From Hirudinaria manillensis (lineage: Eukaryota > Annelida > Clitellata > Hirudinida > Hirudinidae), in contig CM067526.1 in the NCBI GenBank assembly GCA_034509925.1, positions 14,691,600 through 14,755,599 of the forward strand: a DNA stretch of 64,000 nucleotides. The letters are read 5' to 3'. How positions within the stretch are numbered: the first letter of the stretch is position 1; every line of letters starts with the position of its first letter. Below are positions 4 to 64,000 of this stretch, one piece after another. A model generated the notes under the pieces. The model was not told the DNA's origin and searched no databases. It was given only the letters and a program-made list of their open reading frames with translations. The position numbers and the translations under genes were made by a program.

Positions 4-891
4 TTGAATCCATCACGGCTCTCTATAACTGCCGTGGTGGTGGAATATGTCACCAAGCTCAACAGACCCATGATGGGTGTAGCAACTGGAATGTTGAGGG
101 GCATAGAGCCCTCTGAAACCCTTAATCCAAAGGTGCCAGTTTTTGTAAGAAGGTCACAATTCAAGCTCCCTTATAAATCATCTCTTCCTATCATCATGGT
201 TGGGCCAGGAACAGGTCTTGCACCTTTTATGGGATTTCTTCAAGAGAGGCTGTATCAGAAGCAAGAGGGTATCCCTTCTTATATCTTGCCATTTCATGTC
301 ATATTAAAATGCTTATAAGGTCATGAGAATGTCATCTTTATTTCAATTCTGATTCATGCTAAACTGCCAAAGATCACTTTCACCTCAACAAATTCCTAGG
401 TAAACCAATTGGGGATATGTATCTTTACTTTGGATGTCGTCACAAGAGCAAAGATTTCATATATGAACAAGAACTTCAAAGGTTTTTGGATGAAGGGGTC
501 CTGACAAAGTTACATGTCGCCTTCTCCAGGGATCAGGAGAAAAAGGTCTATGTACAGCACCTGATGGAGCAAAATGGGAAAGAAATCTGGGAAGCCTTGG
601 AGCAAAAGGGACACTTTTATGTTTGTGGGTTAGCACTCTCATTGAAACTAATGGTGCTTGAGGCTTAGTCTATGTAGAAACAAATATCCAATATCAGACC
701 ACATAAATACAGACAATAACCACTTCATACCTGTTTCAACTTTCAGAGATGCAAAAAACATGGCTCATGATGTTGACCTGACAATGCACAAAATAGTTAC
801 TGAGTATGGAAATTTGGACTCAGTTTCTGCCTCAGATTACATAAAAAGGATGAGATCTTCTGGAAAATACTCATGTGATGTCTGGAGCTGA
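4..891 (+). CDS. POR: NADPH-cytochrome P450 reductase, C-terminal part (5' end outside window)
   Basis: POR is an ER-anchored diflavin enzyme that passes electrons from NADPH through FAD and FMN to P450s. Only the C-terminal FAD/NADPH-binding half is present. Three exons can be joined by GT-AG introns with matching phases: 4-268, 400-628 and 747-891. The TAG at 1-3 looks like an upstream splice acceptor. Diagnostic motifs are MVGPGTGLAPFMGF (NADP-ribose/pyrophosphate loop), YFGCRHKSKDFIYEQEL, VAFSRDQEKKVYVQHLM, HFYVCGDAKNMAHDV (the conserved catalytic-region CGDA across the last splice) and the C-terminus KYSCDVWS, whose last aromatic residue normally stacks on FAD. Nothing is broken in the visible part. 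The 5' exons with the FMN domain and membrane anchor must lie upstream of the window. Family identity is near certain. Confidence 0.93.
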
Positions 892-1199
892 AAACCTCCA
901 AAGAATTATTAGAACATTTGCTTTGACTCACATATGCTTCTAGGACAAAGATATTTTAGGATTTGCCTCAACTTCGGTTTCATTTTGCCTTCCACCCAGT
1001 GAAAATAATTTTGTCGTCTATTGATTTGTTTTTATCAGATATTGACAAATAGTGCTAACCAAATTCAGTTTCAAAATTTCTTTTTAGACAATTAAGTGTT
1101 GTGTAAGAATCATAAGCTTGAGTTACAAGCAAAAGCCTGGAAGAAGTCTTTTCTAGCCAAAAACCAGGAAACAATGCCAAGAATTAACTTCATTGGCTA
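892..1199. other. Short intergenic spacer between convergent genes
   Basis: AT-rich sequence between the POR stop and the stop of the convergent minus-strand gene. It should hold both 3' UTRs. I see no further coding signal. Confidence 0.6.
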
Positions 1200-1820
1200 T
1201 TAAATGATTGAGAAGTTTATGAACTTTTTTTCTGTGTCAGAGATTGGCCTGATGGAAAGACAATTTAATGTAGCTCTGTCCTTAGAGTTAATGCGGCCTA
1301 CGCATCGGTAGTGACCCCCTCGCAGGATTCCCGGTCCAACATTGTGCTCATAATAAATGCAAGATATGGCATCGGTTCCGTCTTTAAGTACGAATTCGGT
1401 TGCATCAAAAGTGGGGTGCTTAACTACAGGGGAGTCGATTTTTCCGAAAATTTCAAATAATACGAGGTGGGTACTTTTCGAATAGATTTCCACAACTTTG
1501 GAGATGCTGCACATAACTAATTGGAAGTCCCTTGCATCGAACGTTGAAGGATTCCTGGATGAGCGATTCGATCCCGAGCAAACATGTCTGAAGGTGCTCC
1601 TTTCGCCTTGAGGAGCAGGGTTCTTATAATGTGGACTTCTAACCGTAGAAGAGACGGCATTGAGAATATAATTGTGACCGTCCTCACTGAAGTTACTATT
1701 CTGAGACTGTATCCGAAGGAATGGCGGAATTGTATTTAGAACCAAGGGTTTCTCTCCTAACATTTCTTCTACGTCTTCATTCGAAAATATCCTGCTGGAT
1801 TCATAAAATAACGCAGACAT
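1200..1820 (-). CDS. OB-fold protein, SPATA22-like (206 aa, single exon)
   Basis: A continuous ORF from an ATG to a TAA. The first ~90 residues are polar and serine/asparagine-rich, so probably disordered. The last ~110 residues read as a compact beta-rich domain: FQLVMCSISKVVEIYSKS, HLVLFEIFGKIDSPVV, EFVLKDGTDAISCIYYEH, RGGHYRCVGRINSKD, LNCLSIRPISDTEKKFINF. The order (partner strand, 'FLLKDxxG', 'CIYYE', 'HRCVGR', 'CVSVRP', helix) is that of the RPA2-type OB fold found at the C-terminus of SPATA22, the partner of MEIOB in meiotic recombination. That assignment is from memory of the family pattern, without an alignment. It is shorter than vertebrate SPATA22, and an upstream exon could be missing. 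It is divergent to the innexin, 654 bp away. An unrelated OB-fold protein remains possible. Confidence 0.45.
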   Translation of the reverse strand: MSALFYESSRIFSNEDVEEMLGEKPLVLNTIPPFLRIQSQNSNFSEDGHNYILNAVSSTVRSPHYKNPAPQGERSTFRHVCSGSNRSSRNPSTFDARDFQLVMCSISKVVEIYSKSTHLVLFEIFGKIDSPVVKHPTFDATEFVLKDGTDAISCIYYEHNVGPGILRGGHYRCVGRINSKDRATLNCLSIRPISDTEKKFINFSII

Positions 1821-2307
1821 CCTCCGCTCACCAACACGAACTTCCTGCTAACGGTGACAAAACGCCCAAATCGCGTCTGCTACCAGTTCGCTGTTATGAT
1901 CCATATCAATGAGTCCAATTCTTAAATCTGTGACATATTTTTTTTATTTGCAGTCTGCTTAGCTCGGTTTTTATTTGCAATAAAATATAGACCCTATCCA
2001 AATTTTGTTTTAAAAGCAAAGGGCTTGGTCGCTTCTTTAAGTAGTTTTTAGGCTTCTCCCAAGGCATGCAAATTAATTTAATTCGTAAAATTAAATTAGA
2101 TTAAATTGCAATGCTGGGAGGCCGCCAAAATAGATTATATTTTTATCATAGTTTATCAGTAATATAAACAAATTCATGAAATATAAGATTTTATTTGGTG
2201 GTAAACTTTCCTTTTTGGAAATTTTTTCCATTAGACTTAGATAGTACAACGGATGATTCATGCTTGGTCATCGTCGAATTGCGTCAAAGCAGCGAAGCCT
2301 TGCTGCA

Positions 2308-2315
2308 TATAAAAG
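2308..2315 (+). promoter_or_regulatory. TATA box for the innexin gene
   Basis: TATAAAAG lies 160 bp upstream of the innexin ATG, in a locally GC-richer stretch (about 2270-2370) that stands out from the AT-rich flanks. Transcription would start near 2335-2345, giving a 5' UTR of about 130 nt. Position and sequence are seen; function is inferred. Confidence 0.5.
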
Positions 2316-2474
2316 CGTGACCTCCACCACGCTTTGGATTTCCAGACTGGTTGCGAGTCCGGATCGTTTCGTTTTGAACTTTAATAAATAAACAATCGCG
2401 TTTACGACTAATATTTTAAAAGTTTGCCAATCTGCAATTTTAAATAATTTGATAGAGTTAAAAATCTGAAAAAA

Positions 2475-4145
2475 ATGGTTACTACTATTGTTTCGACTCT
2501 GGCCTCCATAGGTGGTTTTGGGTGCCAGAAAGTTGAAAATTTCATTGATAGGTTGAACAGATATTACTCTTCCGCATTTCTTTTAATTCTAGCCTGTCTC
2601 GTGTCTTCTAAGCAACTAGTAGGAAATCCAATTGAGTGTTGGTGTCCCGCTCAGTTTACCGATAACCAAGTCCGTTACACAAATTCCTACTGCTGGGTTA
2701 GCAGCACTCACTACCTTTCCAAAGAACATGCTGTCATACCACGATCATTTTCCAAGGACGACGGCATCACCTATTACCAGTGGGTACCCCTGATGTTTCT
2801 ACTGCAATGTTTTCTCTGCCACATTCCTTACTTTCTATGGAAATTCTTACTACAACACAATGGTGCCAATGCATCTGATCTTTTGGAAGCTGCCTTAATG
2901 ACTAATGAAATCACTAAATTAGAAATGCGCGAAAAAACAATCGAACACATCGCCCATCAGCTTGACAGGTACACTTTAACCAGAAGATATTCCGACTCCA
3001 CTTGTTATAAGAGATTGATGAACGTTCTTTCCAAGAAGTTCTTTATGTTTGGTGGAAGAAGCTACGGCAACTTTCTTTCCAACTGCTACATGTTCATCAA
3101 GGTCGGATTACCTAAAACATAAAAATACATTAATGAATGGCATAAAAGCCTAAATCTGATATCTTGCCATTTTAGGTAGTCTACATTTGCCTTTCGGTGC
3201 TTCAGATTCATCTCTTGGAACTGTTACTAGGAGCAGAAAAAAATTATCATCTTTATGGAATCAAGGCCATCCACGGCATGTTTCTAAGAATGCCTTGGGC
3301 GGACCCGGACCACTTTCCCATCGGAACGTTATGCGAATTAGAAATTAGGGACCAATCGAGAATTCACAGCTATGTCGTCCAATGCGTCCTCAGTATAAAT
3401 ATCTTTAACGAAAAGATATTTGTAATTCTGTGGCTTTGGTTTTTTGCCCTGCTCACTGTTACCTCTATCGATTTCATCAAGTGGTTTGTTTATAACTTCT
3501 ACTGGAGAGGATCAACAAAGTACGAAAGTATATTTTTCTCTTATGATTATTGAATCATCGGTTAACTAAATAAAATTAACAACAATTTTAGACAGACGTT
3601 AATTAAATGTTTCGCACTTTTAATGTCGTTTGATGCTTCGTTTCTTAAACTTAGAAGACGATTTTTTCTTTAGATTGAATGAAACACCAATGGAAGTAAC
3701 AAACATGTTCGATTCATGCAATTCATTACAAAATACCGAAATTTCTACAAAAGTAGTTGACACGTCAAGATATCCATTCATTTTATGTATTTATGAAAGA
3801 GCTATTTCTTTAAATGAAATTTCTTCTTTTTTTATATTTAGTACATAAATCTTCAGGTTCATCTCTAAAAGACTATGCAAAAACACAGGTCGTAAGCTTC
3901 CTCCGAATCCAGTGCTTTTGTCGCGATTTGTCAGGAATTACCTGCGAAGAGATGGTATGACGATCATTCGCCTGATAGGATGCAATTGCGGTGACGTACT
4001 TATCAGCGAAATCCTAGAGCGGCTCTGGGTTCTCTATATGCCACAACCATTGCAAAAGAATTACATCAACGTCAGTCCAGGATTCAAAACAAAAGAAACT
4101 CTATCGTCGTTAAAGGAGAGCTCGTCAACCGCTCAACTCCTCTGA
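2475..4145 (+). CDS. Innexin (gap junction channel subunit)
   Basis: Innexins form invertebrate gap junctions and hemichannels in the plasma membrane, with four transmembrane segments. Three exons: 2475-3101, 3176 to about 3519, and 3857-4145. Exon 1 carries the N-terminal helix, TM1 (SSAFLLILACLVSS), an extracellular loop with CWCPAQF and NSYCWVSSTHY cysteines, and the family signature YYQWVPLMFLLQ leading into TM2. Exon 2 has TM3, the second extracellular loop (FPIGTLCELEIRD, VVQCVLSINIFNEKIF) and TM4. Exon 3 has the cytoplasmic tail (RFVRNYLRRDGMTIIRLIGCNCGDVLISEIL). The exon 2 donor is ambiguous: GTACGA at 3520 gives the phase needed for exon 3, while GTATAT a few bases later does not. 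The donor after exon 1 (GTCGGA) is weak. The product is about 420 aa, normal for the family. Confidence 0.94.
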
Positions 4146-4947
4146 AACTCGTATTTATTTAAATTTTTTTGAAAGGGGGGTGCACGAACAGTGAGTTGTA
4201 AGTGAAGCCGCAGAAACGTTTGTAACCGACTATAAATTATGTATAATCGTCGTCAAGCGAACTGATACAATCACATTTATTTAAACAACATTGCATCCAT
4301 CTCGACACACGTACGAATTGTTTATTATAGATGGGGTGAGAGTTATTTTTTTCCAAAGCAATTCCCGAAAGCAGCCCGAAAATTTACACATCACCCGAAT
4401 GTTCAATACAGAACGATTTTAAACCAGTCAACACTTTTTTATGACTTAAAACATTTCCAGATGAATTATTAAATACTTCTATTTGTGAACGCTTTATTTA
4501 ATTTGAGAGACGATTTTGGTCACTAGACATTCGGAACGATTTAAAAAGAGCGATCAAAATTATCGTTTTTAATGTAAACACGATAACAATAAACTACGAA
4601 ACTTCTTCAATAAATTCTAAAAAGTGAACACTGGCCTTGAAGTTTGAACAATTCGAAATTGCAAAGACGAAGAAATCCAACACATAAAGCTCGACTAAAT
4701 GAACATGGCAACATCAATCGAGGCATCCATTAATTAAACAAGGAATGGTCTCAATGTATTAGTCTTTGATGTAATCTGCACCAATCACAATTCACATTTA
4801 GCATTAAAATGGGTAACTACTACAAACTAAAATTAAAACTGTCTTTTGAGATAGAATTATCGAATAAGAGGAATTAAAGGATCGTGACCGGGCATTCCGC
4901 ACTTCTTCCGAATTCTAGGCGATTGTAAGTCTAGTTAGAGCCTTAAC
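4146..4947. other. Intergenic spacer between convergent innexin and WDR62-like genes
   Basis: AT-rich sequence with several TTTATT/AATAAA-like hexamers on both strands, consistent with two facing 3' UTRs. No ORF or RNA gene is supported. Confidence 0.6.
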
Positions 4948-7900
4948 TTAGAAGGTGGTAGGGGCAGAATCAATCTTCTTCTTAATGAGTTCATACATCT
5001 TCATAGTCAGATCTTCTAGTTGCGAGGAGGGCTGAGATGGACCGAACAGTTCCTGCAATTTCTTGCATTCTTTTTCCACAGCCGATTTTAGTTTCACTAA
5101 CACGGGATCATTTTCTTCTTTAAACTCTTTCAGCTGATTAAAGAAAAATAAACCTTTATATGAAGGACGCCATAATAACCAACTAGAAATAAAATGGCTA
5201 ATGTCATAAATAAGGACCTTTTCATAGATTTGAGATATGGTATTTACTGCATCCTCCAGTCTGTCACAGGCTTCTGAGGCCCTATCTGATTTATTAAAAG
5301 GTAGTTCAATGACCAAAAACAAATGACCAACAAATCCCAAATGCCTACCTTCTTCAGGAGTGGATTCAGCAGAAACCATACATACCACAGGTGAAAATGC
5401 CACTCTTGGTCTGTGTGGAAAGAGATTAACTGTAACTCAAACTACCAAAAAAATGAAAAATAATTATTGCTTATGCTGTTCTTTAGTTATGCAAATTGAT
5501 CCAATTGAAAAGCAAACCTGGTGCAATCCTTTCTACTTTTTATAACGCGAGAATCCCTAAGACCAGATAGCGGTTCCCCTTCTCTTGGCAATTCTTCATT
5601 CGATTGATAGCTACCGTCGGCAGAAGAGGTCCTCGTATGTTTAAGACTGCTTTTGTCTTCTTTTATATTCCAATCAAAATTTAACATGCTATGCCTTGAC
5701 CTATCATTAACAGAGAATTCAATCCCTGTATTATTGTTAGACGGGGAAGGTTCATGAGTTGTAAGTGAGTCCATGCTTTCAGAATGCCTGCTTTGAACAG
5801 CAGACCACCTTTGAGATTCTTGCTCTTCGTCACTAACGGTCCTAAATTTCTTGAAAATGAGTTTAGTTGCTAAATCTGATTGACCACTTTCTGTTGACTC
5901 ATTATTTCTGTGTTCCCATCTATGCTGGATTGTGTCTGCCCTCTTGACACGGTTTTGAAGTGTGTCAGGTGAATGAACGTATAGGTTACGAGAAGGAGGT
6001 CTTGCAAAAGTAATGTTGGCGTTGGTGGGTGATTTTAATGAACCCCATTTTGATTGGCTGTTTACCCTCTTTGGACTCAAGTCTATTTCCTTTTTCTGAT
6101 TGCTCACTGGTTGAGCAATATTAGAATTAATGCTAGAAACTTCTTTAAATTTCAGCATCTTGGTCGAGGAGATTAGACGTGGCTCCATGTAAGAAGTGCT
6201 TAATTTGCTTGCAGGATCTGATGGGAGAATCCTTTTCTGAAGCTGAGGCTTCATCTGAAGGTTGGAAGATAAAGGTTTGCTTATTTGCTTAGTTGGTTTA
6301 AGCAAAGTGCTGATGCTGGAATGTGATCTCCTTGAGCTATTAAAATCTCTTTCTGGTACTTCCAGCTCCTCTCTTGAAGAAATATGCAGTTTCATTGGTT
6401 CCCCAGGCATAGGATTATCTCCTTTTGGTGAATTCAATGTAACCATAGAATCGACTGAGCCGACTTCTCTCAAATCCATCACATCAGCCCCTGAAAGTCT
6501 TTCTTCAGGACAGGCAAAGGTCAATAGGCTGGACTCCTGCCTTGAGTCCGACATGTTATCATTTAAAATATCCATTTCTTTGGTATGTTCATTCTCTGAG
6601 ATATTGCAGGAAACTTGGGAGTTGTGAACATTCAGAGACAAGATTGCAGAATCACCTATAATTTCTTCATCTCCTTGATTTTTGGAAAGATGTTCATCTT
6701 CAATGAGGTTTGGAGTGGACTGAAATTGCTTTGCAGATCGAGGTAATAAAGGCCTGCTAAGTTGTAGTTCTTTGGACGAGCTTTGTTGCTTAGCCTGAGA
6801 ACTTTCAGTTGCCATACGATATGAACGAACTCTGGTAAGTGGTTTTCTTGATTCACCTTCCTTCTCAATCTTAGAATTCAAAGTCATCATAGAAATGGCG
6901 GTCATTGATCTTTTGGACTTCTTCTTGATGATGGAATTTTCTTGCCTGGAAAAACTATTGGAGGCTGCTAAAAAAAGAGTGTAAAAATCATTATAATGAG
7001 GTGAATCTCCAATAAATAATAATAACAATAATAATAATAATAATAACAGTATCAACAACAATTGCATTAAATCAGTGTTTGATTCAAATTAATAAGTTAA
7101 AAAGCACTCAGCTCAACTTTAAGAAATTAAAAAGCAAAACAATCACTAAATGGCATTATGATTTCATAAGGTAAAGGAAAAATATTCATTTGAAAATTTG
7201 AAATAGACCAAATCAGCAAATCATAATAAATCATTTAGAATCCACATCAGGGATTAATTTTCCAAGTAAATGAAATGATTAACAGTTTGGTTAGTATAAG
7301 GTGAAAAGCAAAAAATCTGCAGATTTGTTAATAATACTCAAAGGTCATTGCTTGGCTAATGTCCTTAAATTCACCAGTCTGAGGAGCCACATTGATATTT
7401 GGTGTTTGAGAGCGCAGGATGGATTTAAGCTTAACTTTTCCTCCAGTCACGGTTTGGACCTTTTCATTCCCGTCGTGTCCCCGTGAAACCCGTCCCTCAT
7501 TACCACCAACATAGCTCTTGTCGTGCAAATGAATGTCGACAAGAGATTTCCACTTTCGAGGTGATGACAAAGACGAGCATTTTGCTGGCCGAACGAGTTC
7601 GTCTGCCGATGTTAAAAAACTGCGAAATCAAGTTTCAATCCATGCACCTTTTTGTAGTTAGTCATCCGACAATTAAGGACATCGACAAAGAATTTTTATA
7701 TTTAATTCGTCGTATTTTAACGGCACGCGACGATTTTTTACATAAAATTAATGAAGATCAAGACGAGCCGAATCCTTCTTTTGTAATTATCGCTGCCAAG
7801 TCCGGTGGATATAATTTTTGTTTTGAACTTTAACCTATTTGTATTTGGAGAACATTTGCTTTCAAATCGTTCTAGTGGAATTGAAACTTCTCCATCTCGC

Positions 7901-40049: not shown

Positions 40050-40076
40050 AACCCTAACCCTAACCCTAACCCTAAC
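40050..40076. repeat. Short interstitial telomeric tract, (CCCTAA)4
   Basis: AACCCTAACCCTAACCCTAA on the plus strand, about four units, flanked by unique sequence. The orientation is opposite to the arrays at 55.7-62.8 kb. Confidence 0.9.
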
Positions 40077-54950: not shown

Positions 54951-55682
54951 GATACTTATGTGCTTATAACTTTTGGCAAGTCTCTTGCAAATAGAAACCT
55001 TTGAAAACGAGATAATATCCGTAAAGTTTTATGAGTAATCTATTTGTGATATGTTATGTCGACTAACAATATGAAAACGTATGACATGCTGGCAACATGG
55101 GACACCTGTAACTAGTGGCAACGCTATAGCCAAAAATGGAGGTTATTAATGGTTCTTCTAATCGATAACAAATTAAATCTCAATCAGTAATGAACATTTG
55201 ATGTTCTTTTCTATCGTGTGAATAATTTAATGTCTCGATGAGTCAAGCACCACGGGACCTTCGGTGCCAACCTAATGGTACATATCTGATTGCGAATAAA
55301 TATTTTAGAATTTATTTCTATAGGAATAATTTAAATGAAATCGTAATTATAATTTAGTGTGTGCAGTAATCATTTTTTTATTTTTTAAAATTTGTCGAGA
55401 GTCATCTAATGATTGAAATAAAAATGACTAATTAAAGTGATTTTTTAATATTTTAAAATGTATTTGTATCAGCATAATCTAAATAAAATGGTAATTATAA
55501 CTTAGTCTGTGAAGTTATCATTAAAAAAATTTTTGTTAAATATTATAACATCATATTATTTTATTCTTATCAAAATGATTATTATTGTTAAACTCATTAT
55601 TATTATTAATATTATAGTTATTATTGTATTATTGTTGTTCTTGTTGTTATTATTATTGTTATACCATGATGATGATTATCAT
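54951..55682. other. Spacer between the IQCE-like gene and the telomere-repeat region
   Basis: About 730 bp of AT-rich sequence with AT-only microsatellite stretches (ATT/TTA runs at about 55560-55660). It should include the IQCE promoter. No other feature seen. Confidence 0.5.
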
Positions 55683-55703
55683 GGGTTAGGGTTAGGGTTA
55701 GGG
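55683..55703 (+). repeat. Interstitial telomeric tract, (GGGTTA)3
   Basis: GGGTTAGGGTTAGGGTTAGGG, followed directly by an A-rich stretch and a truncated S unit. Confidence 0.95.
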
Positions 55704-55795
55704 AAAGAGAACGAAAATAAAAAAAACATCACTTCCACTTTCTTTGTATCAGATTATCTAGCAATTATGTCCCGCAAGCGTCAAAATCGATAAAT
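55704..55795 (+). repeat. Truncated, diverged S unit (copy 1)
   Basis: After the short telomeric tract comes an A-rich stretch, then CACTTCCACTTTCTTTGT, then sequence similar to the start of the full S unit at 56596 (including ATTATCTAGCAATTATGT and the CGTCAAAA block). It ends before the next telomeric tract. Confidence 0.75.
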
Positions 55796-55807
55796 ATTAC
55801 TAAGTCA

Positions 55808-55890
55808 GGGTTAGGGTTAGGGTTAAAGTTAGGGTTAGTGTCAGGGTCACGGTTAGTGTTAGGGTTAGCATTAGGGTTAGGGTTAGGGGT
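55808..55890 (+). repeat. Degenerate telomeric tract
   Basis: GGGTTA units mixed with variants (GTGTCAGGG, GTCACGG, GTTAGCATTA), about 13 units in all. Confidence 0.9.
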
Positions 55891-55952
55891 TTTAACCATC
55901 ACTATATTTTCACTATTTTTCACCATCACCATTTTTTCACCATTTTCCACCA

Positions 55953-55993
55953 GGGTTAGGGTTAGGGTTAGGGTTAGGGTTAGGGTTAGGGTT
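55953..55993 (+). repeat. Telomeric tract, (GGGTTA)7
   Basis: Seven near-perfect units, running straight into AAGAGAAATTAAAAAGC and the ACTTCCACTTT block. Confidence 0.95.
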
Positions 55994-56080
55994 AAGAGAA
56001 ATTAAAAAGCTTGTACTTCCACTTTTTTCTTTAGGGTTAGGGTTAAGAGAAATTAAAAAGCTTGTACTTCCACTTTCGCT
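55994..56080 (+). repeat. Two short S-unit starts separated by two telomeric units
   Basis: AAGAGAAATTAAAAAGCTTG plus ACTTCCACTTT occurs twice, 51 bp apart, with TTAGGGTTAGGGTTA between. Each is a few tens of bases from a telomeric junction. Confidence 0.85.
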
Positions 56081-56201
56081 CCAGTAGTCTTAATTTAAAT
56101 ATCAGGATTCAATAAGGAAAAACCTAATAGACGGAAATAATTTCCCTTCGAAATAATCTTTAGGGAGAAAACAATTATTTTTCACAAATAATTGTTAAAC
56201 T

Positions 56202-56595
56202 GGGTTAGGGTTAGGGTTAGGGTTAGGTTAGGGTTAGGGTTAGGGTTAGGGTTAGGGTTAGGGTTAGGGTTAGGGTTAGGGTTAGGGTTAGGGTTAGGGT
56301 TAGGGTTAGGGTTAGGGTTAGGGTTAGGGTTAGGGTTAGGGTTAGGGTTAGGGTTAGGGTTAGGGTTAGGGTTAGGGTTAGGGTTAGGGTTAGGGTTAGG
56401 TTAGGGTTAGGGTTAGGGTTAGGGTTAGGGTTAGGGTTAGGGTTAGGGTTAGGGTTAGGGTTAGGGTTAGGGTTAGGGTTAGGGTTAGGGTTAGGGTTAG
56501 GGTTAGGGTTAGGGTTAGGGTTAGGGTTAGGGTTAGGGTTAGGGTTAGGGTTAGGGTTAGGGTTAGGGTTAGGGTTAGGGTTAGGGTTAGGGTTA
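56202..56595 (+). repeat. Long telomeric array, about 65 TTAGGG units
   Basis: Near-perfect hexamers, with only two TTAGG pentamer variants (near 56224 and 56398). The G-rich strand reads left to right, so the matching chromosome end would lie to the right. Confidence 0.98.
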
Positions 56596-57345
56596 GAATA
56601 GAAAATATAAATAAAACTGCACTTCCACTTTCTTTGTTAGTAGACAATCTAGCAAATTATGTATCGTGGTCGTCAAAAACACACAATATAAGTCTAACTA
56701 AATTAACAATGCATCAAGAGACAATATATCGGCAATTGATGATATAAACTGGCATTAAAGTTAATGGGAACCCATAAAAATAAGAGCCAGATATGGACAG
56801 AATGTTTAACTACAACGCCAAGAATTGCTAAGCAAGCTTGGAATTAAAGTAGTATTCGAGAGTCGTATGTTCTCAAAAAATTCTTAAAACGTGTTTATCG
56901 TAGAAAGAACCTAAGGAGAAAATAACGAAACCGATTGCAAATTCACTTAATAAATAATTACCCGTCGAAGCACGTTTTTTTTAAAAAAAACTATTAGATT
57001 AATAAGGGATGATAAATCATCGCCCAAAACAACAAATTAACTTAGTAGTTTTACCACGAATTCATCAATGAACGATAAATTAGTGTAACAACAAGAGATG
57101 AAATCTCAGCCCTTGGAAAAACCACAGAAATAAGTTGTTTATTTGGTAAAAAAATTATTATTGGGAACCCAAAAATTAAAACCAAAGATGCAATTAAATT
57201 AACTTAGTAGTTTTACAACGAATTCATCAATGAACGATAAATTAGTGTAACAACAAGAGATGAAATCTCAGCCCTTGAAGAAACCAAAGAAAAAGGTTAT
57301 TTATTTGGTAAAAAAATTATTGGGAACCCAAAAAAAATTTTTTAA
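56596..57345 (+). repeat. S unit, full-length copy (telomere-adjacent repeat)
   Basis: It starts AATAGAAAATATAAATAAAA immediately after the telomeric array and continues through the CACTTCCACTTTC block. Related copies occur at 55704, 62758 (direct) and 63310-63990 (inverted, nearly identical to 56590-57279). No ORF. If the Penelope-like element is the parent, this is its 3' UTR end, read on the minus strand. Confidence 0.85.
57034..57345 (+). repeat. Two tandem ~162-bp units inside the S unit
   Basis: AAATTAACTTAGTAGTTTTA starts at 57034 and again at 57196. Both units run through ATCTCAGCCCTTG and TTATTTGGTAAAAAAATTATT to GGGAACCC, with few differences. Confidence 0.9.
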
Positions 57346-58116
57346 AAACCAAAAGTACAATAAATTAAAATAAAATAGTTTATAACGTGCGTTTTTCAAA
57401 AAAAATCTAAAAACGTATTTAACGTTAAAGATTTTTGAGAATGACGAGCGAGGTATATTAAAATGCTAAAAAATACCAGGAAATGCTTCGCATTACAAGT
57501 ATCAAAGCTATACCGAAATATATAATATATTATATATTATATAAAAGTTCTACAAAATTCTAAAGCGTATTTCACGATAAAAAAGAATTTAAGAACAAAA
57601 GTGAAAAAAGCAATTAAAAAATTACGCTAAGAAATACCATTAAATTGCAACGCATAAAATGGTATCGAAGCAAAATAGAAGCAAGCACGTGTGTTTTGAA
57701 CAAAGCACTGATAACCACTAAGAAATATCTTAGGATTATCAAGCGACAAAAATACGAATACTTCAACAGACAAAATACAAGGCAAAATACCGTTAATACG
57801 ATTAAACTCACTAGGCCCTCGGCAGTTCTGCCCTCTAAGGTGAGCGAATAAGCGAAAAACGTAAAGATCGAAAAGCGGAAAATATTGTCCTTATATAGCC
57901 GAGGAAGGTCCAGTGTTGACCAATAGGAGACTCCTGAGCGGCGGTGGGAGCACTGCTTCCCCTGTCCTTTGAAGTGTTCATGCTGGCTAGCTTCTCTCTC
58001 CTCTAGAGGGGAGGTGGTGTCCTAGGAACTAGTTAATTAGTTATGCAGGCGTGACTCATTACATCGAGTTCAGGCCAGTCATTGTGTAATGCATCCTTGG
58101 CCTAGAACTAGGCGGT
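57346..58116. other. AT-rich stretch followed by a GC-richer, promoter-like stretch
   Basis: 57346-57800 is AT-rich with an AT-only palindromic run near 57520-57545. 57800-58116 is clearly GC-richer, contains TTATATAGCC (about 57890) and GACCAATAGG (about 57919), and leads into a short plus-strand ORF at 58122. A promoter on the plus strand is possible, antisense to the RT. Function unproven. Confidence 0.35.
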
Positions 58117-58510
58117 AAGATGGCTACGTTCCTTCGGACAGAAGTAACTTCCTTTTTCGAACGCCAAGATGACGGTGAGGTTCCTGAAGAGTTCATCCCT
58201 GGGGTGAACATTCCTGATGCTATCTTCTGTTGTTGTCTCCTGTCGTTCCCAGTGGTTTTTACCCAAAGGAACTATAACGGGTAAGACTTTAAAATACTAC
58301 TTAGACGATCGTCAGAAGCATTTGTAATTTCTATGAGAATACTTCTCAAAGTTAGGTGATTGTACAGTGGCGAAATATCTTTGTCGATAAGTTCAATAGA
58401 ATTTTCTAAGTAATATTCATTCTTAGAAGGTGATCTAATGAAACTATTGATTTCTGAGATAGCTGGATACCCAAACATATAATTTTGGGTGGCATGATTC
58501 AGCATTTTTT
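58117..58510 (-). pseudogene. Degraded copy of the Penelope-like element's 3' module (copy 1)
   Basis: The minus strand encodes SKNEYYLENSIELIDKDISP and EITNASDDRLSS, matching SKNEYFLKTSNELIHKQISL and EVANASDDRPSK at the RT C-terminus. The adjoining DNA (CTTCCTTTTTCGAA, ...GGAACTATAACGGGTAAGACTTT) aligns with 59790-59935. It is diverged and out of context, and lacks the RT core. Confidence 0.8.
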
Positions 58511-58601
58511 ATAAGGAAAGAAATCTCTAATTAATCTCCTTCTTTATTAAGAAATGTATTCGTATCAAGAATTATCAAGTTCACGGAAACCCGTTACATC
58601 C

Positions 58602-59591
58602 AAAAGATAATTATTGTCATAATATACTCCAAATTTTTTGAAAATTAATTTTTCAAAAATACAGAAATTTATTCTTAAAAAATTAAATTTTAAAAAATAA
58701 ATTCTTTTGTTTTATTCTAATAGATTCCTCAAAGTTACGCGGCCTCGAATGATCCGTTCCAATTATCGTTCTTGGTATATCTAACGATAATATGACGTTG
58801 AGGTTCCCGACGAATTCCGTCATAGGAGACAAATCATCAATTATCCTCCTGGTTAATCGAAGAGAGTTATGAATGGTAAGAATTTCTTATATTCGAAAAA
58901 AAATGTCTTGACGATCGTCACAGGCATAGTGATTGTAACTTAGTGGAGTATATAAGGGGAGTATTCAGTCGACCAAGAAAATCTTTTTAAGATAATCTTT
59001 ATATCGAATGAGATGTGAATTGATACAACCACTTTTATTGGTTAGCATGATTCAGCATTTTTTCAATAAGAAATCTCTTATTGGAAATCTCAGAAAAGAT
59101 AATTATTGTCATAATATACTCCAAATTTATTGAAAATTATTTTTCAAAAATTTATTATACAAAAATTTATTCTTAAAAAATTAATTTTTAAAAATAAATT
59201 CTTTTGTTTTATCCTTGTAGATTCCTCAAAGTTACGCGGTCTCGAATGATCCGTTCCAATTATCGTTCTTTGTATATCTAACGATAATATGACGTTGAGG
59301 TTCCCGACGAATTCCGTCATAGGAGACAAATCATCAATTATCCTCCTGGTTTATCGAAGAGAGTTATGAATGGTAAGAATTTCTTATATTCGAAAAAAAT
59401 GTCTTGACGATCGTCACAGGCATAGTGATTGTAACTTAGTGGAGTATATAAGGGGAGTATTCAGTCGACAAAGAAAATCTTTTTAAGATAATCTTTATAT
59501 CGAATGAGATGTGAATTGATACAACCACTTTTATTGGTTTAGCATGATTCAGCATTTTTTCAATAAGAAATCTCTTATTGGAAATCTCAGA
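58602..59591 (-). repeat. Two tandem ~492-bp copies of a deleted 3' module (copies 2 and 3)
   Basis: The unit beginning AAAAGATAATTATTGTCATA at 58602 recurs at 59094, almost base for base, to about 59591. Each contains stretches alignable with the RT C-terminal region (GACGATCGTC, GATAATCTTTATATCGAATG, GCATGATTCAGC) and the same GGTAAGAATTTCTTA motif, with internal deletions. High identity between the two implies recent tandem duplication; divergence from the full element is older. Confidence 0.88.
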
Positions 59592-59888
59592 AGTGTTATT
59601 TAGTTGATATTAGCGTACAAAAGATAATTTTTATAATTATTCTGCTCACCATGTGTACAAATAATTCCTTTTCTTAAAAATCAATTATGATTTTCATTCG
59701 GTACAGGCTACAAGAGGTTTAGCATCATCGAGATGGATGTCCAGAATATCATCAAGAGTCCATTCGTTCAGAAGAATTTCGAGAGGAGATTACTTCCTTT
59801 TTCGAAGGCTGAGACGATCGTGAAGTTTCTGAAGAAATCATCTTCAGAGAGAACTCTTCTAACGCTGTTTACTGCCTTCCTCGAGGTT
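59592..59888. other. 3' flank of the Penelope-like RT reading frame
   Basis: Immediately downstream of the RT stop on the minus strand. On the plus strand it contains an open stretch (59733-59915) that ends at AAAAAG/GTAAGATTTTC, a strong splice-donor match, in the same place as in copies 1-3. It is either 3' UTR or an antisense exon. Confidence 0.45.
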
Positions 59889-61538
59889 TCACCAAAAGGA
59901 ATTACAAAAAGGTAAGATTTTCTTATCTTTATTTTTACTTGGACGATCATCCGAAGCATTCGCTACTTCTCTGAGAATTTTTCTCATAGTTTGGCGATTG
60001 TAACCCAGCGAAATTTGTTTGTGGATAAGCTCATTAGAGGTTTTAAGGAAGTATTCATTCTTAGAAGATAATCTTTTATATCGAATGAATTGTGATTTAA
60101 CAATACCACCAAAAGTATGTTTTGGGTGGCATGAGTCCGGGTTTAAAAGAAGTCTATTGTTAGTCTCCTTAAAAAACACCTTTGTACCAATGGAGTTATC
60201 TGGTTCGCGGAATACCGTTACATCCAGAAAATTGATTGCGTTTTTATCGCATTGTAATTCAATTTTAATGTCCGTTATTACATTGTTCATTGCAGATTCC
60301 AGAAGAGTAGCATCATCCGATGAACCCTTCCAGATCATGAAAATATCATCCAGATACCTAAGGTAGATTTTGGGTTTTAATTGATAATTTAGAACTAAAT
60401 TATCTAACGCTCTTAAGTAGAGGTTGGCTAAACCCGGTGAGTACTTTTTACCCATGGCACAACCACAAACTTGGAGGAAATAATCACCATTAAATTCAAA
60501 ATCATTTCTTTTCAAGGTGAATTCGAGCAGATCGATGATCAAAGAATCAGGGCGGTTACCGACCGGGTGCTTGTTAAACCAACGTTTAATGACAGCAACC
60601 GTTCTATTCAAATTCATATTGGTGTATAACGAACTAACGTCACCCGTTATAAAAATGTCATTATCATCCAAATGAATCCCTTTAATCTTTTGAATAAAAT
60701 CGAAGCTATCCCTCACATAAGAGGGAAGGTGTTGTGCGTATTTATTGATATGGTAATCAATAAATTGAGCAATACGTGACGATTCCGTTTTGACATCGGA
60801 AACTATCGGTCGACCGGGTGGGCAATTAGGATCAAACCATTTACTCTTCGGTTTATGAACCTTAGGTAAAAAGTAGAATTTTCTACTATTAAACGGTCTT
60901 GGGCCCGTAAGAAATTTAAACAATTTCGAACTAATTTGGTGTGTATCCAAGGCATTTTTCAATTTTTGTTCCAATAGTCGAGCGTTTTCTGGTTGTATTG
61001 ACTTTGTCAATTTAACGTAGAATTTCGTATCATTTAATTGCCGAATTGCCTCATCGAGGTATTTCTGTTTATCAAGGATTACAAAGGACGAACCTTTATC
61101 GGCCTTACGAATAGTAATTGACTTGTTATTAGCAATTTTATTGATACTTGCGTAATCAGAAAACCCATGTGTGATTTCGTTCAAAGTTCGAAAGGACGTC
61201 CGACTAGAATCGGTAGCATCTCTTACAATAAAATTATTCATTGTTTGGTAGAACTTATTTGTTACTTCATCGAGAATTAACCTCGTGTTGTAATCAAGAC
61301 ATTCGAGAGGTGGTTCCCACTCACTCGGTATTCTAAAGCTATCACTTTTAGGTAAATCACTTTTGAAAAACGCTTTTAATTTTAGCGTTCTAATAAAACG
61401 TTTAATAGCTTCATGGATTCTTTGTGAATTCACTTTACTATAACAAGGAACAAAGTAAATGCCCTTCTGTAAGACATTCAATTCTTTATTGTTAAACACA
61501 AAGTTAGAAAGGTTGAATGTCCTATTATCTGGATCCAG
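59889..61538 (-). CDS. Penelope-like reverse transcriptase (RT part)
   Basis: This makes cDNA from the element's RNA. It is open from the codon after the TGA at 61539-61541 (LDPDNRTFNLSNFVFNNKEL...) to the TAA/TAG-type stop at 59889, 549 codons. Motifs in order: NVLQKGIYFVP near the start, the PLE DKG motif (ITIRKADKGSSFVILD), FYFLPKVHKPKS, PPGRPIVSDVKTESSRIAQF, motif A GDVSSLYTNMNL, motif B QVCGCAMGKKYSPGLANLYL, motif C YLRYLDDIFMIW with both catalytic aspartates, then INFLDVTVF and the thumb (KNEYFLKTSNELIHK). YLDD replaces the more usual YIDD/YVDD. The core looks intact. After the thumb the frame ends within ~25 residues and no GIY-YIG endonuclease follows, so either the element belongs to the EN-lacking group or the domain was lost. 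The only ATG-like start downstream of the TGA is a GTG, so this part depends on the upstream frame. Confidence 0.9.
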   Translation of the reverse strand: MDPDNRTFNLSNFVFNNKELNVLQKGIYFVPCYSKVNSQRIHEAIKRFIRTLKLKAFFKSDLPKSDSFRIPSEWEPPLECLDYNTRLILDEVTNKFYQTMNNFIVRDATDSSRTSFRTLNEITHGFSDYASINKIANNKSITIRKADKGSSFVILDKQKYLDEAIRQLNDTKFYVKLTKSIQPENARLLEQKLKNALDTHQISSKLFKFLTGPRPFNSRKFYFLPKVHKPKSKWFDPNCPPGRPIVSDVKTESSRIAQFIDYHINKYAQHLPSYVRDSFDFIQKIKGIHLDDNDIFITGDVSSLYTNMNLNRTVAVIKRWFNKHPVGNRPDSLIIDLLEFTLKRNDFEFNGDYFLQVCGCAMGKKYSPGLANLYLRALDNLVLNYQLKPKIYLRYLDDIFMIWKGSSDDATLLESAMNNVITDIKIELQCDKNAINFLDVTVFREPDNSIGTKVFFKETNNRLLLNPDSCHPKHTFGGIVKSQFIRYKRLSSKNEYFLKTSNELIHKQISLGYNRQTMRKILREVANASDDRPSKNKDKKILPFCNSFW

Positions 61539-62423
61539 TCACCGTAGGGAGCGAGGCTCATCTCTTACGAGTCCTCTTGTTACTTTCCACCAGGGTTCCT
61601 GTGAAAAGAGTTCATTGAAGGTCAATTTCAGTCTAGAAACTCTAAGTTTATAGCCCACACAAACAAAACTATCGGATACCATAGATTTGCTTATATGGAT
61701 GGCCCAATCACGTAGCTCAATAATCGAATATTGTGAGGGGATCCTCTCACAACATTTTAAAGAATTATGGATTTCTGGGTTGATTTTCCCATTCAGGAAA
61801 GCCCACTCAGAATCCCGGTTTACCCCAAATGCTACTTTAAGTAGGCTGAGGACGACGTCGGCAATCACCGATACCGTGGAAAACCTCTTTAGTTTCACAG
61901 TACTAATACCATGGATTAAGCACAAACCTGTGTTAGGAGGACCACTGGGAACCCTGGTGGTCCTCGTGTTCATTTCCTCATTGGTTGGTACGATAGTAGG
62001 TCCGACGGTTGGTACGATAGTAGGTCCGACGGTTGGTTCGACGGTTGGTTCGATGGTTGGTCCGAGGGTAGGTCTGTTTGGGGAAGGGATGGAAAGGGAT
62101 TCCATTTCCTTCTCCAAGGAGTCGTCGAGTAAGCTCGGATCAAATGGGGGAGACAGGGGGCGGGCAGGGGTACTAGTGGATGGAATTGGGGGAGGCACCT
62201 CCACGGATTCCAAGAAAGGTATAGTGGTTTCCCTGCTAACCTTAACCTCAGGTCCACGAATCCTGCGTTTTTTTGCAGGAGCGACCTGTGCAGGGGTATC
62301 CTCAGCAGGTCGTTTTTCACCCAAGAGAGATCTCCAGGCTGTGAGAGCCTGGGGAATTTCTAAATAAGAAGTATGTTTGCACGGAGAATCCTCCAGTACA
62401 AAATCAAAGATGGATTTCTCCAT
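61539..62423 (-). CDS. N-terminal part of the Penelope-like protein, ending at an in-frame TGA
   Basis: ATG at 62423 ([20 protein letters not shown]), 294 codons, then TGA at 61539-61541; the RT part continues in the same frame. The first third is followed by a basic cluster, [17 protein letters not shown], that looks like a nuclear localisation signal. Next come a Pro/Ser-rich stretch, an acidic segment, a PT-repeat ([19 protein letters not shown]) and a folded-looking C-terminal ~110 residues ([40 protein letters not shown]). I do not recognise that domain. The ATG lies three bases from the telomeric array, and the frame stays open upstream through the array, so the true start is uncertain. 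Confidence 0.7.
61980..62072. repeat. Minisatellite coding a PT-rich repeat
   Basis: GGTTGGTACGATAGTAGGTCC-type units (24 bp, with 12-bp subunits GGTTGGTTCGAC) on the plus strand, encoding (V/I)(G/V/E)PT units on the minus strand of the Penelope-like frame. Confidence 0.85.
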
Positions 62424-62426
62424 TTC

Positions 62427-62757
62427 AGGGTTAGGGTTAGGGTTAGGGTTAGGGTTAGGGTTAGGGTTAGGGTTAGGGTTAGGGTTAGGGTTAGGGTTAG
62501 GGTTAGGGTTAGGGTTAGGGTTAGGGTTAGGGTTAGGGTTAGGGTTAGGGTTAGGGTTAGGGTTAGGGTTAAGGTTAGGGTTAGGGTTAGGGTTAGGGTT
62601 AGGGTTAGGGTTAGGGTTAGGGTTAGGGTTAGGGTTAGGGTTAGGGTTAGGGTTAGGGTTAGGGTTAGGGTTAGGGTTAGGGTTAGGGTTAGGGTTAGGG
62701 TTAGGGTTAGGGTTAGGGTTAGGGTTAGGGTTAGGGTTAGGGTTAGGGTTAGGGTTA
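62427..62757 (+). repeat. Long telomeric array, about 55 TTAGGG units
   Basis: Near-perfect hexamers with one variant (TTAAGG near 62571). Its left edge is three bases from the Penelope-like ATG; its right edge runs into another S unit. Confidence 0.98.
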
Positions 62758-63309
62758 AGACAGGAAATATAAATAAAACTGCACTTCCACTTTCTTTGTT
62801 AATAGATAATCCAGCAACTTATGTACCGTATTCGTCAAAAACACACAATGTAAAGCTAACTAAATTAACACTGCATCAAGAGACAATATATCGGCAATTG
62901 ATGATACAAACTGGCATTAAAGTTATTGGGATCCCAAATAAAAATTAGAGCCAGATACGGACAAAATGTTTAACTACAACGCCAAGAATTGCTAAGCAAG
63001 CTTGGAATTAAAGTAGTACTTGAGAGTCATATGTTCTCAAAAATTCTTAAAACGTATTTAACGTGAAAAGAATTTTAGGAGAAGATAACGAAACTGATTG
63101 CAAATTCACTTAATAAATACCCGTCGAAGCACGTTTAAAAACTATTAGATAAGTTGTTTATTTGGTAATAAAATTATTTGGAATCCAAATAAAATTAAAA
63201 CCAAAAATGCAGTTAAAATTAATTAAATTAACAAGGGATGATAAATCATCGCCCAAAACAACAAATTATCTTAGCAATTTTACCACGAATTCGTCAATGA
63301 ATCAAGGGC
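62758..63309 (+). repeat. S unit, diverged direct copy
   Basis: It begins AGACAGGAAATATAAATAAA, then CACTTCCACTTTCTTTGTT. It tracks 56596 onward with point changes and small deletions (for example GGGATCCCAAATAAAAATTAG against GGGAACCCATAAAAATAAG). It stops at about 63309, where the inverted copy begins. Confidence 0.88.
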
Positions 63310-63990
63310 TGAGATTTCATCTCTTGTTGTTACACTAATTTATCGTTCATTGATGAATTCGTTGTAAAACTACTAAGTTAATTTAATTGCATCTTTGGTT
63401 TTAATTTTTGGGTTCCCAATAATAATTTTTTTACCAAATAAACAACTTATTTCTGTGGTTTTTCCAAGGGCTGAGATTTCATCTCTTGTTGTTACACTAA
63501 TTTATCGTTCATTGATGAATTCGTGGTAAAACTACTAAGTTAATTTGTTGTTTTGGGCGATGATTTATCATCCCTTATTAATCTAATAGTTTTTTTAAAA
63601 AAAACGTGCTTCGACGGGTAATTATTTATTAAGTGAATTTGCAATCGGTTTCGTTATTTTCTCCTTAGGTTCTTTCTACGATAAACACGTTTTAAGAATT
63701 TTTTGAGAACATACGACTCTCGAATACTACTTTAATTCCAAGCTTGCTTAGCAATTCTTGGCGTTGTAGTTAAACATTCTGTCCATATCTGGCTCTTATT
63801 TTTATGGGTTCCCATTAACTTTAATGCCAGTTTATATCATCAATTGCCGATATATTGTCTCTTGATGCATTGTTAATTTAGTTAGACTTATATTGTGTGT
63901 TTTTGACGACCACGATACATAATTTGCTAGATTGTCTACTAACAAAGAAAGTGGAAGTGCAGTTTTATTTATATTTTCTATTCTAACCCT
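63310..63990 (-). repeat. S unit, inverted copy, nearly identical to 56590-57279
   Basis: The reverse complement of the 56.6-kb copy with very few differences (one length change in a T/A run). It begins abruptly at TCAAGGGCTGAGATTTC and ends in TTCTATTCTAACCCTAACCCC, the complement of the telomere junction. Together with 62758-63309 it makes a large imperfect palindrome. Confidence 0.9.
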
Positions 63991-64000
63991 AACCCCGTTA

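Follow-up and report, generated by a model that had tools for sequence, protein, structure and literature searches.

Probable end attachment of an endonuclease-less Penelope-like retroelement among the telomeric repeats of a leech chromosome

Introduction

The best-described animal cases of telomere-attaching Penelope-like retroelements (PLEs) come from bdelloid rotifers, whose telomeric repeats are not TTAGGG. Coprina is an endonuclease-deficient PLE group, Naiad is a PLE type with an N-terminal GIY-YIG, and the TRAS/SART elements have a LINE-type reverse transcriptase (RT) with an APE endonuclease. The rotifer Terminons are described as carrying a hammerhead ribozyme next to their 3' telomeric repeats and as reaching up to 40 kb. 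In the accounts of PMC6431247 and PMC3846280, the Athena/Terminon elements of bdelloid rotifers are endonuclease (EN)-deficient PLEs at chromosome ends with reverse-complement telomeric repeats at their 3' side, and their copies are 5'-truncated by telomeric repeats and arranged in head-to-tail arrays. Telomeric association of EN-less PLEs is reported in PMC3846280 for rotifers, fungi, protists and plants.

Here we describe an element in a 64,000-nucleotide stretch of the genome of the leech Hirudinaria manillensis, referred to as the window. Like Athena/Terminon, it is EN-less, terminal and 5'-truncated, carries CCCTAA repeats at its 3' end and occurs head-to-tail. It differs in that no hammerhead was found, a 15-nt tag common to RT-less repeats being present instead, in that leech telomeres are TTAGGG, and in that the longest leech copy seen, at 6.5 kb, falls short of the 40-kb upper size of Terminons. 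With Coprina and the other EN-deficient PLEs of fungi, protists and plants (kuruma shrimp has also been reported) it shares an EN-less RT, the leech host being an annelid; the canonical PLEs Neptune, Penelope and Poseidon have a related RT together with a GIY-YIG that the leech element lacks. Like HeT-A/TART of Drosophila it appears to add head-to-tail at chromosome ends, and like TRAS/SART of Bombyx it sits among telomeric repeats (in part from PMC10088271). Unlike either pair, it is a PLE rather than a LINE, in a genome with a telomerase gene match, and its PLE-type relatives and the lack of any Pfam endonuclease in ORF1 or RT place it outside the TRAS/SART definition. No telomeric PLE from a leech or other annelid was among the matches listed in the openly licensed (CC) literature.

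Results

Organization of the focal copy

The G-rich strand of the window points right, and C1, the chromosome-sized scaffold to which the window belongs, stops at window base 64000; the right side is therefore the scaffold end, which agrees with the initial annotation in placing the chromosome end there. Also as that annotation had described, two TTAGGG arrays flank a minus-strand RT and 3' region. The proximal array comprises 66 units with 98% matches and the distal array 55 units with 99% matches, the RT frame at 59889-61538 (549 aa) matches Pfam RVT_1 (E 7e-8), and the 3' region occupies about 3.3 kb of the minus strand between the proximal array and the RT. The features of the locus are as follows.

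55683..56100, minus strand: 3' remnants of older elements between short telomeric runs, comprising an S-like tail and D-type tails, including a 37-nt stub; a D-type 15-nt tag lies at 56063-56077 (minus)
56202..56596, plus strand: proximal (TTAGGG)~66 array, presumed former chromosome end and primer of the copy
56597..57300, minus strand: S unit, the 3'-terminal region of the element, its sense strand terminating in ...TTTTCTATTCTAACCCTAACCC
56618..56632, minus strand: 15-nt 3'-terminal tag GAAAGTGGAAGTGCA, A form; variant forms are common to other element types
57034-57334: 162-bp tandem duplication overlapping the S unit
57301..59770, minus strand: long 3' untranslated region in which the RT 3' end recurs as decayed partial copies (58147-58608; 58602-59095; 59094-59592)
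59771..61538, minus strand: PLE-type reverse transcriptase, ORF2; 549 aa open from 61538 to 59889
61539..61541, minus strand: in-frame TGA separating ORF1 from the RT, with one frame on both sides
61542 to about 62423-62432, minus strand: ORF1, 5'-truncated in the focal copy, with a PT-rich stretch
62424..62427, minus strand: 5'-truncation point abutting telomeric repeats; the G-strand reads ...CATTTCA up to the junction and GGGTTAGGG beyond it
62427..62757, plus strand: distal (TTAGGG)~55 array, presumed to be the cap that telomerase added to the truncated copy
62758..63150, minus strand: 3' end of another element (sister subfamily; about 90% to S), distal to the cap; its tag lies at 62780-62794
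63302..63995, plus strand: inverted S copy at the extreme contig end, in an orientation contrary to expectation

The inverted S copy is 99.9% identical to 56584-57278, and the decayed partial copies at 58602-59095 and 59094-59592 are 96% alike. The long 3' untranslated region was also found at loci L005, L010, L011 and L023. When a full-length copy was compared with the window (blastn, E up to 1e-3), no match lay left of 55,695, where the subtelomeric strip starts with a 92-bp S-like tail; below window position 55,000 a double telomeric repeat occurs at one site only (40052-40076).

Set against the 6,467-bp copy at the left end of C5 (L005:1533-7999), the focal copy begins at position 630, and longer copies have an ATG about 590 nt upstream of its first ATG. 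The initial annotation had placed the distal array three bases from the first ATG, which is literally correct; this ATG is a truncation scar, and the longer copies led us to reject a natural gene start at the array.

Coding capacity and relationships of the reverse transcriptase

ORF1 (492 aa in L019) and the RT (589 aa) occupy one frame interrupted by the TGA, which is also present in L005, L010, L019, L023 and the interior copy L027 (89% identity in the RT segment). In the focal copy a frameshift near the RT C-terminus cuts the frame short, and the final approximately 46 RT residues are out of frame; in ten other copies the RT frame is open over 589 aa. Comparison of the RT with an interior copy gave a dN/dS of 0.15 across 293 codons. 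Pfam revealed no RT or endonuclease domain in ORF1 and no endonuclease domain in the RT, and a database search for ORF1 homologues returned just one match, short and of low complexity.

The RT is of the PLE/telomerase type: its closest relatives show PLE architecture, and it is about 35–48% identical to relatives that carry GIY-YIG. In a Foldseek search with the RT model, ranks 1–10 were all telomerases, and the VIA Z scores of telomerase (17.4) and of DGR and group II intron RTs (16.6) did not separate them; no PLE structure was among the matches listed in the fold searches, which is no argument against relatedness. In a tree of relatives without family labels, the leech RT and nine database RTs formed one EN-less group (SH-aLRT 100) on a long stem. 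No relatives were confirmed in GTDB and IMG/VR contigs. One relative (P0008) has an NPNPNPNP stretch after the RT that could be encoded by CCCTAA repeats.

Absence of a GIY-YIG endonuclease

The RTs of nine of the ten members of the EN-less group stop at one alignment column, and the tenth runs on into low-complexity sequence. Searches of the genome with PF01541 (GIY-YIG) and PF12009 (the source of the TERT match), in six frames with introns ignored, gave one candidate each, and the single PF01541 hit lies away from any RT match. A GIY-YIG-bearing PLE used as query gave 54 matches, all to RTs of the leech family and none beyond residue 668, the GIY-YIG motif of the query beginning near residue 724. 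By these three approaches no GIY-YIG was found in the leech family, and the H. manillensis genome yielded no other PLE. The common end column and the lack of a GIY-YIG PLE in the genome led us to reject loss by the focal copy alone, so that the initial view of an endonuclease-less family, as opposed to one degenerate copy, holds. A Naiad-like N-terminal GIY-YIG, seen in two of the 120 relatives listed (P0010, P0018), is absent from the leech element.

Location and orientation of copies in the genome

With 79 of 138 candidates scored, the genome-wide RT search identified 11 copies, the focal one among them, at 99–100% identity covering residues 1-547 or more. All 11 lie no more than 49 kb from a scaffold end, and 10 are oriented as end attachment predicts; the initial annotation had named mostly internal or randomly oriented copies as the contrary outcome. 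A twelfth copy, at the right end of C7 (residues 1-549, 88% identity, 11 stops), also fits this orientation. Three copies are 99.6–99.9% identical to the L005 copy. Among the same scored candidates, partial or decayed interior RT copies (identity 54–90%) occur at eight places: C11 at 198 kb, C8 at 5.09 Mb, C9 at 5.17 Mb, C6 at 0.35 and 11.0 Mb, C2 at 13.2 Mb, C10 at 3.2 Mb and C7 at 2.0 Mb. Three interior places were read, and at the two mid-chromosome ones there was no telomeric hexamer. The copies are thus mostly confined to chromosome ends.

Two exact tag forms, A and B/C, were searched separately and gave 109 and 84 sites, of which 33 and 22 on small contigs (listed or inferred; 9 of one form's 109 sites were inferred to lie after C18:95,571) were excluded from the end count. 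On the 13 chromosomes, 132 of the remaining 138 sites, a set to which D-type sites do not belong, are no more than 80 kb from an end (1.9 expected), and 120 of these 132 are in the predicted orientation; these statistics are descriptive only, because the sites do not represent independent events and we fixed the 80-kb limit with the list already in view. Tags are present at 22 of the 26 chromosome ends, at 21 of which the majority is in the predicted orientation, and reversed-tag controls for A and B/C gave 0 and 1 sites. The 12 wrong-way tags comprise six at C2 left (within 13.4 kb), four at C3 left (1.4 and 24–30 kb), one at C10 left (10.5 kb) and one in the last bases of C1.

Junctions with telomeric repeats

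We read 10 kb at 18 ends (13 left, 5 right), 5 kb at 7 right ends and the window itself at the right end of C1. In the loci read and the window, the element 3' end adjoins reverse-complement telomeric repeats, (CCCTAA)n: the tag is followed by CCCTAA repeats in 40 of 41 cases and by TTAGGG in none. Genome-wide, the tag followed by TAACCCTAACC was matched 261 times with overlaps included, and its control 0 times. With both strands searched, the 20 matches to the element that border telomeric arrays in the loci read and the window all have sense polarity, which supports the attachment orientation first proposed from the window alone.

Truncated 5' ends bear telomeric caps. Five cap junctions, among nine matches with the element on the truncated side of an array, were checked base by base and represent five different truncation points. 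At C11 left, a truncated element is followed by about 1.5 kb of telomeric cap, with small interruptions, up to the contig start. Telomeric runs also enclose five stubs of 19–37 nt, each with its 3' end intact. Head-to-tail arrays are also present: complete-looking 5' ends join the 3' end of the next element through two telomeric repeats, a junction found 31 times (control, 0). Twenty-two of the 31 lie in the unplaced 106-kb contig C18, and two more lie at C11 left in an internally deleted 3.9-kb unit, which is repeated there and has about 20 copies in C18; this clustering indicates that recombination also multiplies units.

The 15-nt tag was also found on repeats in which RT was not detected. 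RNAalifold on ten 3' ends gave no pairs; a conserved 3' RNA hairpin was therefore rejected, and the tag is conserved in sequence only. A hammerhead ribozyme was likewise rejected, as Rfam gave no match at E up to 1 (window) or 5 (L005 copy) and the final 1.7 kb of the L005 copy, read in the sense direction, contain no CTGANGA core.

Discussion

Judged from sequence, the focal element is very probably one copy, cut short at its 5' end, of a chromosome-end PLE that has amplified recently, has no endonuclease and attaches to chromosome ends, and the end-attachment reading of the initial annotation is supported. We set this endonuclease-deficient telomeric PLE of an annelid host beside Athena and Coprina by their descriptions. 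From the junctions we infer that reverse transcription is probably primed by the telomere. The RNA 3' end, CUAACCCUAACCCU, would pair with the exposed G-rich overhang in the manner of a telomerase template, and the RT would then lengthen the chromosome 3' end by copying the RNA; copying would often halt early, which would leave a 5' truncation, and telomerase would afterwards cap the product. A TERT match is present in the genome, so that recapping is possible. Tag-bearing repeats without a detectable RT might, in addition, be copied in trans.

Arrays on both sides would, taken alone, equally fit insertion into a telomeric array, one array having been split by a target-specific endonuclease, as in TRAS/SART, with the enzyme supplied by another element or the host. 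Polarity fixed relative to the telomeric repeat suits such an insertion as well, and C9 left contains LINE-like RT ORFs. We nevertheless consider it unlikely, since neither the element nor another PLE was found to carry a GIY-YIG, and the two-repeat joins of complete-looking 5' ends and the short stubs with intact 3' ends are as serial end additions predict.

That subtelomeric blocks spread mainly by recombination, gene conversion or break-induced replication, with the RT as an old passenger, is in our view highly unlikely. Near-identical copies, blocks of several kb that are common to different ends at 93–98% identity, and the deleted unit shared by C11 left and C18 are in its favor; however, the 3' terminus is constant while the capped 5' end points vary, a pattern that recombination alone does not explain, and the ten open RT frames and the low dN/dS also argue against it. 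It is scarcely credible that misjoined or misoriented telomeric contigs have made the elements falsely terminal. Pieces in opposite orientation occur at four ends, N stretches of 2.5–5 kb open five scaffolds, and the assembly is described as Hi-C scaffolded and manually edited; but the same source gives the contigs as built from HiFi reads with a mean of 18.7 kb (PMC10671345), the array-element polarity is independent of scaffolding, and the pattern repeats at 22 of 26 ends.

Telomerase and PLE reverse transcriptases are described as having a common ancestry (PMC3846280), and no living system is nearer than telomere-attaching PLEs to the presumed transition that turned a retroelement into telomerase. 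The same lifestyle now appears in an annelid that has a telomerase gene and the vertebrate-type repeat and whose HiFi genome is chromosome-scale, and pieces of the element or its relatives adjoin most chromosome ends of this blood-feeding leech. The near-identical copies with open RTs and a short conserved 3' tag open the way to a biochemical test of what the RT needs of its telomere primer, and the RT-less repeats that share the tag suggest a simple recognition signal. It is possible, on balance doubtful, that a PLE lineage outside Athena and Coprina independently evolved telomere addition, with a telomerase-template-like RNA end, CUAACCCUAAC, beside an RT-recruiting 15-nt tag that RT-less repeats exploit. 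If so, telomerase would be joined by a telomerase-like retroelement and its followers in building the subtelomeres of an animal that has telomerase.

Structure and coding capacity of the element

The window corresponds to G000:C1:14691600-14755599, and C1 comprises 14,755,599 bases, so its right edge is the contig end. The assembly consists of 13 large contigs (8.3-14.8 Mb) plus ten small ones; the HiFi/Hi-C assembly description for H. manillensis gives 13 scaffolds of 14.76-8.30 Mb and a mitochondrion of 15,581 bp (PMC10671345). The window also holds an innexin gene; a transporter gene has its best named relative in the leech Helobdella (40% identity), both in keeping with a leech.

The copy at C5 left (L005:1533-7999; 6,467 bp) has a complete-looking 5' end that starts with GCCTAATACC, with an ATG at position 40. 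From 5' to 3' the element comprises an ORF1 region, an in-frame TGA, an RT region, and a 3' region of ~3 kb, and its sense strand ends in ...TTTTCTATTCTAACCC followed directly by (CCCTAA)n. The reading frames of the C5 copy are broken; ORF1 is open over 492 aa in locus L019 and the RT over 589 aa in locus L010. The window copy corresponds to positions 630-6467 of the C5 copy (99.6% identity), with its 5' end fused to the distal array and a frameshift near the end of the RT frame. The RT terminates in ...NLLSKFF. Of the ten RTs aligned from its group, 9 stop at this column; the tenth, the database relative P0008, continues into low-complexity sequence.

The TGA between ORF1 and RT (window 61539-61541, CGG TGA CTG) is common to L005, L010, L019, and L023 and is in frame in the interior copy L027, whose RT segment is 89% identical; its retention in so divergent a copy indicates an old feature. 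The TGA is a candidate for programmed readthrough; as no ATG lies near the start of the RT frame, readthrough would be the likely route of RT expression. The dN/dS of terminal versus interior RT was 0.15 (293 codons); between the terminal RT and the 68% identical RT at C11:198 kb, dS was saturated and pN was 0.20. Decayed part-copies of the RT 3' end lie within the 3' region (window 57301-59770) and are common to other copies; the element seems to have absorbed the 3' ends of earlier relatives.

Profile PF01541 (GIY-YIG) gave a single genome match, at C1:14,669,915, ~82 kb inward of the element, with no RT match beside it. A GIY-YIG-bearing PLE query gave 54 genome matches, every one at places of the leech element RTs, and none extended past residue 668, the GIY-YIG motif of the query starting near 724; no further PLE was detected in the genome with this query. 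TERT is present (PF12009, one genome match, within a 1042-aa open frame).

A conserved 3' tag marks most chromosome ends

Alignment of 3' ends (n = 15) revealed, in this order, GAAAGYGGAASKRCA, a T-rich stretch, and TAACCCTAACCC in nearly all rows. There are four tag types (A, B, C, and D): type A comprises the window element and its subfamilies, type D carries the coding sequence for a related RT (L028; 48% identity across residues 395-548), and type B terminates several-kb blocks that are 93-98% alike between ends. No RT match was found in the type B blocks of L006, L007, and L018 (the former two start with 2.5 kb of N), and the sole ORF of at least 150 aa in these loci was a low-complexity one in L018. 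The tag plus TAACCCTAACC downstream of it gave 261 genome matches (overlaps counted) versus 0 for the reversed control, and the tag alone gave 208 versus 6. In the fetched loci and window, CCCTAA repeats followed the tag in 40 of 41 cases and a one-base variant followed the 41st; TTAGGG followed in none of the 41.

The 13 chromosomes carry 138 exact A and B/C tags (76 + 62), 132 of which are within 80 kb of an end versus 1.9 expected, a limit chosen after the first tag list had been seen; because of amplification, these counts are not independent. The predicted orientation, 3' side inward, was found for 120 of the 132 end-proximal tags. Exact tags are present at 22 of 26 chromosome ends, with a majority in the predicted orientation at 21 of the 22; none of type A or B/C occurs at C5 right, C9 left, C10 right, or C12 right. 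Host-like ORFs were found at C10 right (5 kb read), and this contig may therefore stop short of the telomere. The LINE-type RT ORFs at C9 left (L009, 4488-10000), near an end without exact PLE tags, we take to resemble an R2-like element. Unplaced contigs C18, C19, and C22 show regular tag spacing (~3.9, ~7, and ~8 kb, respectively) and are probably telomere-proximal tandem arrays omitted from the chromosomes.

The 12 wrong-way end-proximal tags are at the left ends of C2, C3, and C10 and in the last 700 bp of C1, where the inverted element is window 63302-63995. The inverted pieces near these four scaffold ends may represent either genuine inverted end structures or assembly joins.

RT copies across the genome

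The genome search for the RT yielded 79 scored matches out of 138 candidates. Eleven matches that reach from residue 1 to residue 547 or beyond at 99-100% identity are located 3.3-49 kb from a scaffold end, all in the predicted orientation except one at C10 left (7.3 kb). A twelfth near-complete RT, at C7 right (88%, 11 stops), also has the predicted orientation. Among the 79 scored matches, those of at least 95% are all near ends or on unplaced contigs C14 and C18. Interior matches occur at eight places and are partial or decayed (54-90% identity); of three such places whose sequence was inspected, L026 (C11 198 kb) has one telomeric hexamer per strand, and none was found at L027 and L029.

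Around L026, three tags of type A or B/C lie together with a 67% identical RT in G000:C11:195487-210304, all in right-end orientation ~200 kb from the left end; the region may be what remains of a chromosome end that was internalised or inverted. At L029 (C9:5171000-5172600), RT fragments lie inside repeated units beside an ORF that is presumably Ulp1/C48-protease-like, suggesting capture by another repeat.

Junctions with telomeric repeats

The flanks of 78 arrays of at least 18 bases in the fetched loci and window were checked on both strands. Twenty matched the element, and all of these had sense polarity; 11 were at the 3'-end side of the element and 9 at its truncated side. Among the latter junctions, five were inspected, at positions 630, 3827 (a sister subfamily), 4665, 5446, and 5886. 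Four pass on the G strand from non-telomeric ...A directly into GGGTTAGGG, although one of them includes seven filler bases; the fifth shows an overlap between the telomeric repeat and a GTTA that belongs to the element. Five stubs with intact 3' ends (19, 22, 37, 22, and 37 nt) lie between telomeric runs. The outermost element at C11 left is truncated at 4665; its cap, ~1.5 kb of telomeric repeat with small interruptions, extends to the contig start.

At complete-looking 5' ends, elements are joined head-to-tail as CTAACCCTAACCCT abutting GCCTAATACC (31 exact cases, control 0). Because 22 of these joins are in C18 and two are in a 3.9-kb unit of C11 left common to C18, tandem amplification acts too. 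Satellites at C13 left (L013, ~452 bp per unit) and C4 right (L016, ~473 bp), ~87% alike, include some 5-11 CCCTAA repeats as a block in every unit.

Discussion

Published accounts of endonuclease-deficient telomeric PLEs describe priming at exposed ends, truncated 5' ends that gain telomeric repeats, head-to-tail arrays, and reverse-complement repeats at the 3' end (PMC3846280, PMC6431247). The features held in common by the leech element fit this description, and we file it in that subclass. A hammerhead ribozyme, an Athena/Terminon feature, was not found in the window and L005 copies; for this reason, and because that clade was compared through its description, the element is not filed as Athena/Terminon. 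Since PMC3846280 mentions endonuclease-deficient PLEs in kuruma shrimp, we do not claim that rotifers were previously the only animals with this subclass.

The element has a mostly terminal location and a prevailing polarity; its 3' end is constant, its capped 5' ends vary between copies, and copies are joined head-to-tail. It encodes a telomerase-like RT in a genome with TERT, and no endonuclease was found. We propose that the CCCUAA stretch at the 3' end of the element RNA would pair with the chromosome's G-rich overhang, which the RT would extend along the RNA, commonly stopping early. Telomerase would then cap the new end, and repeats without an RT may be copied in trans via the tag.
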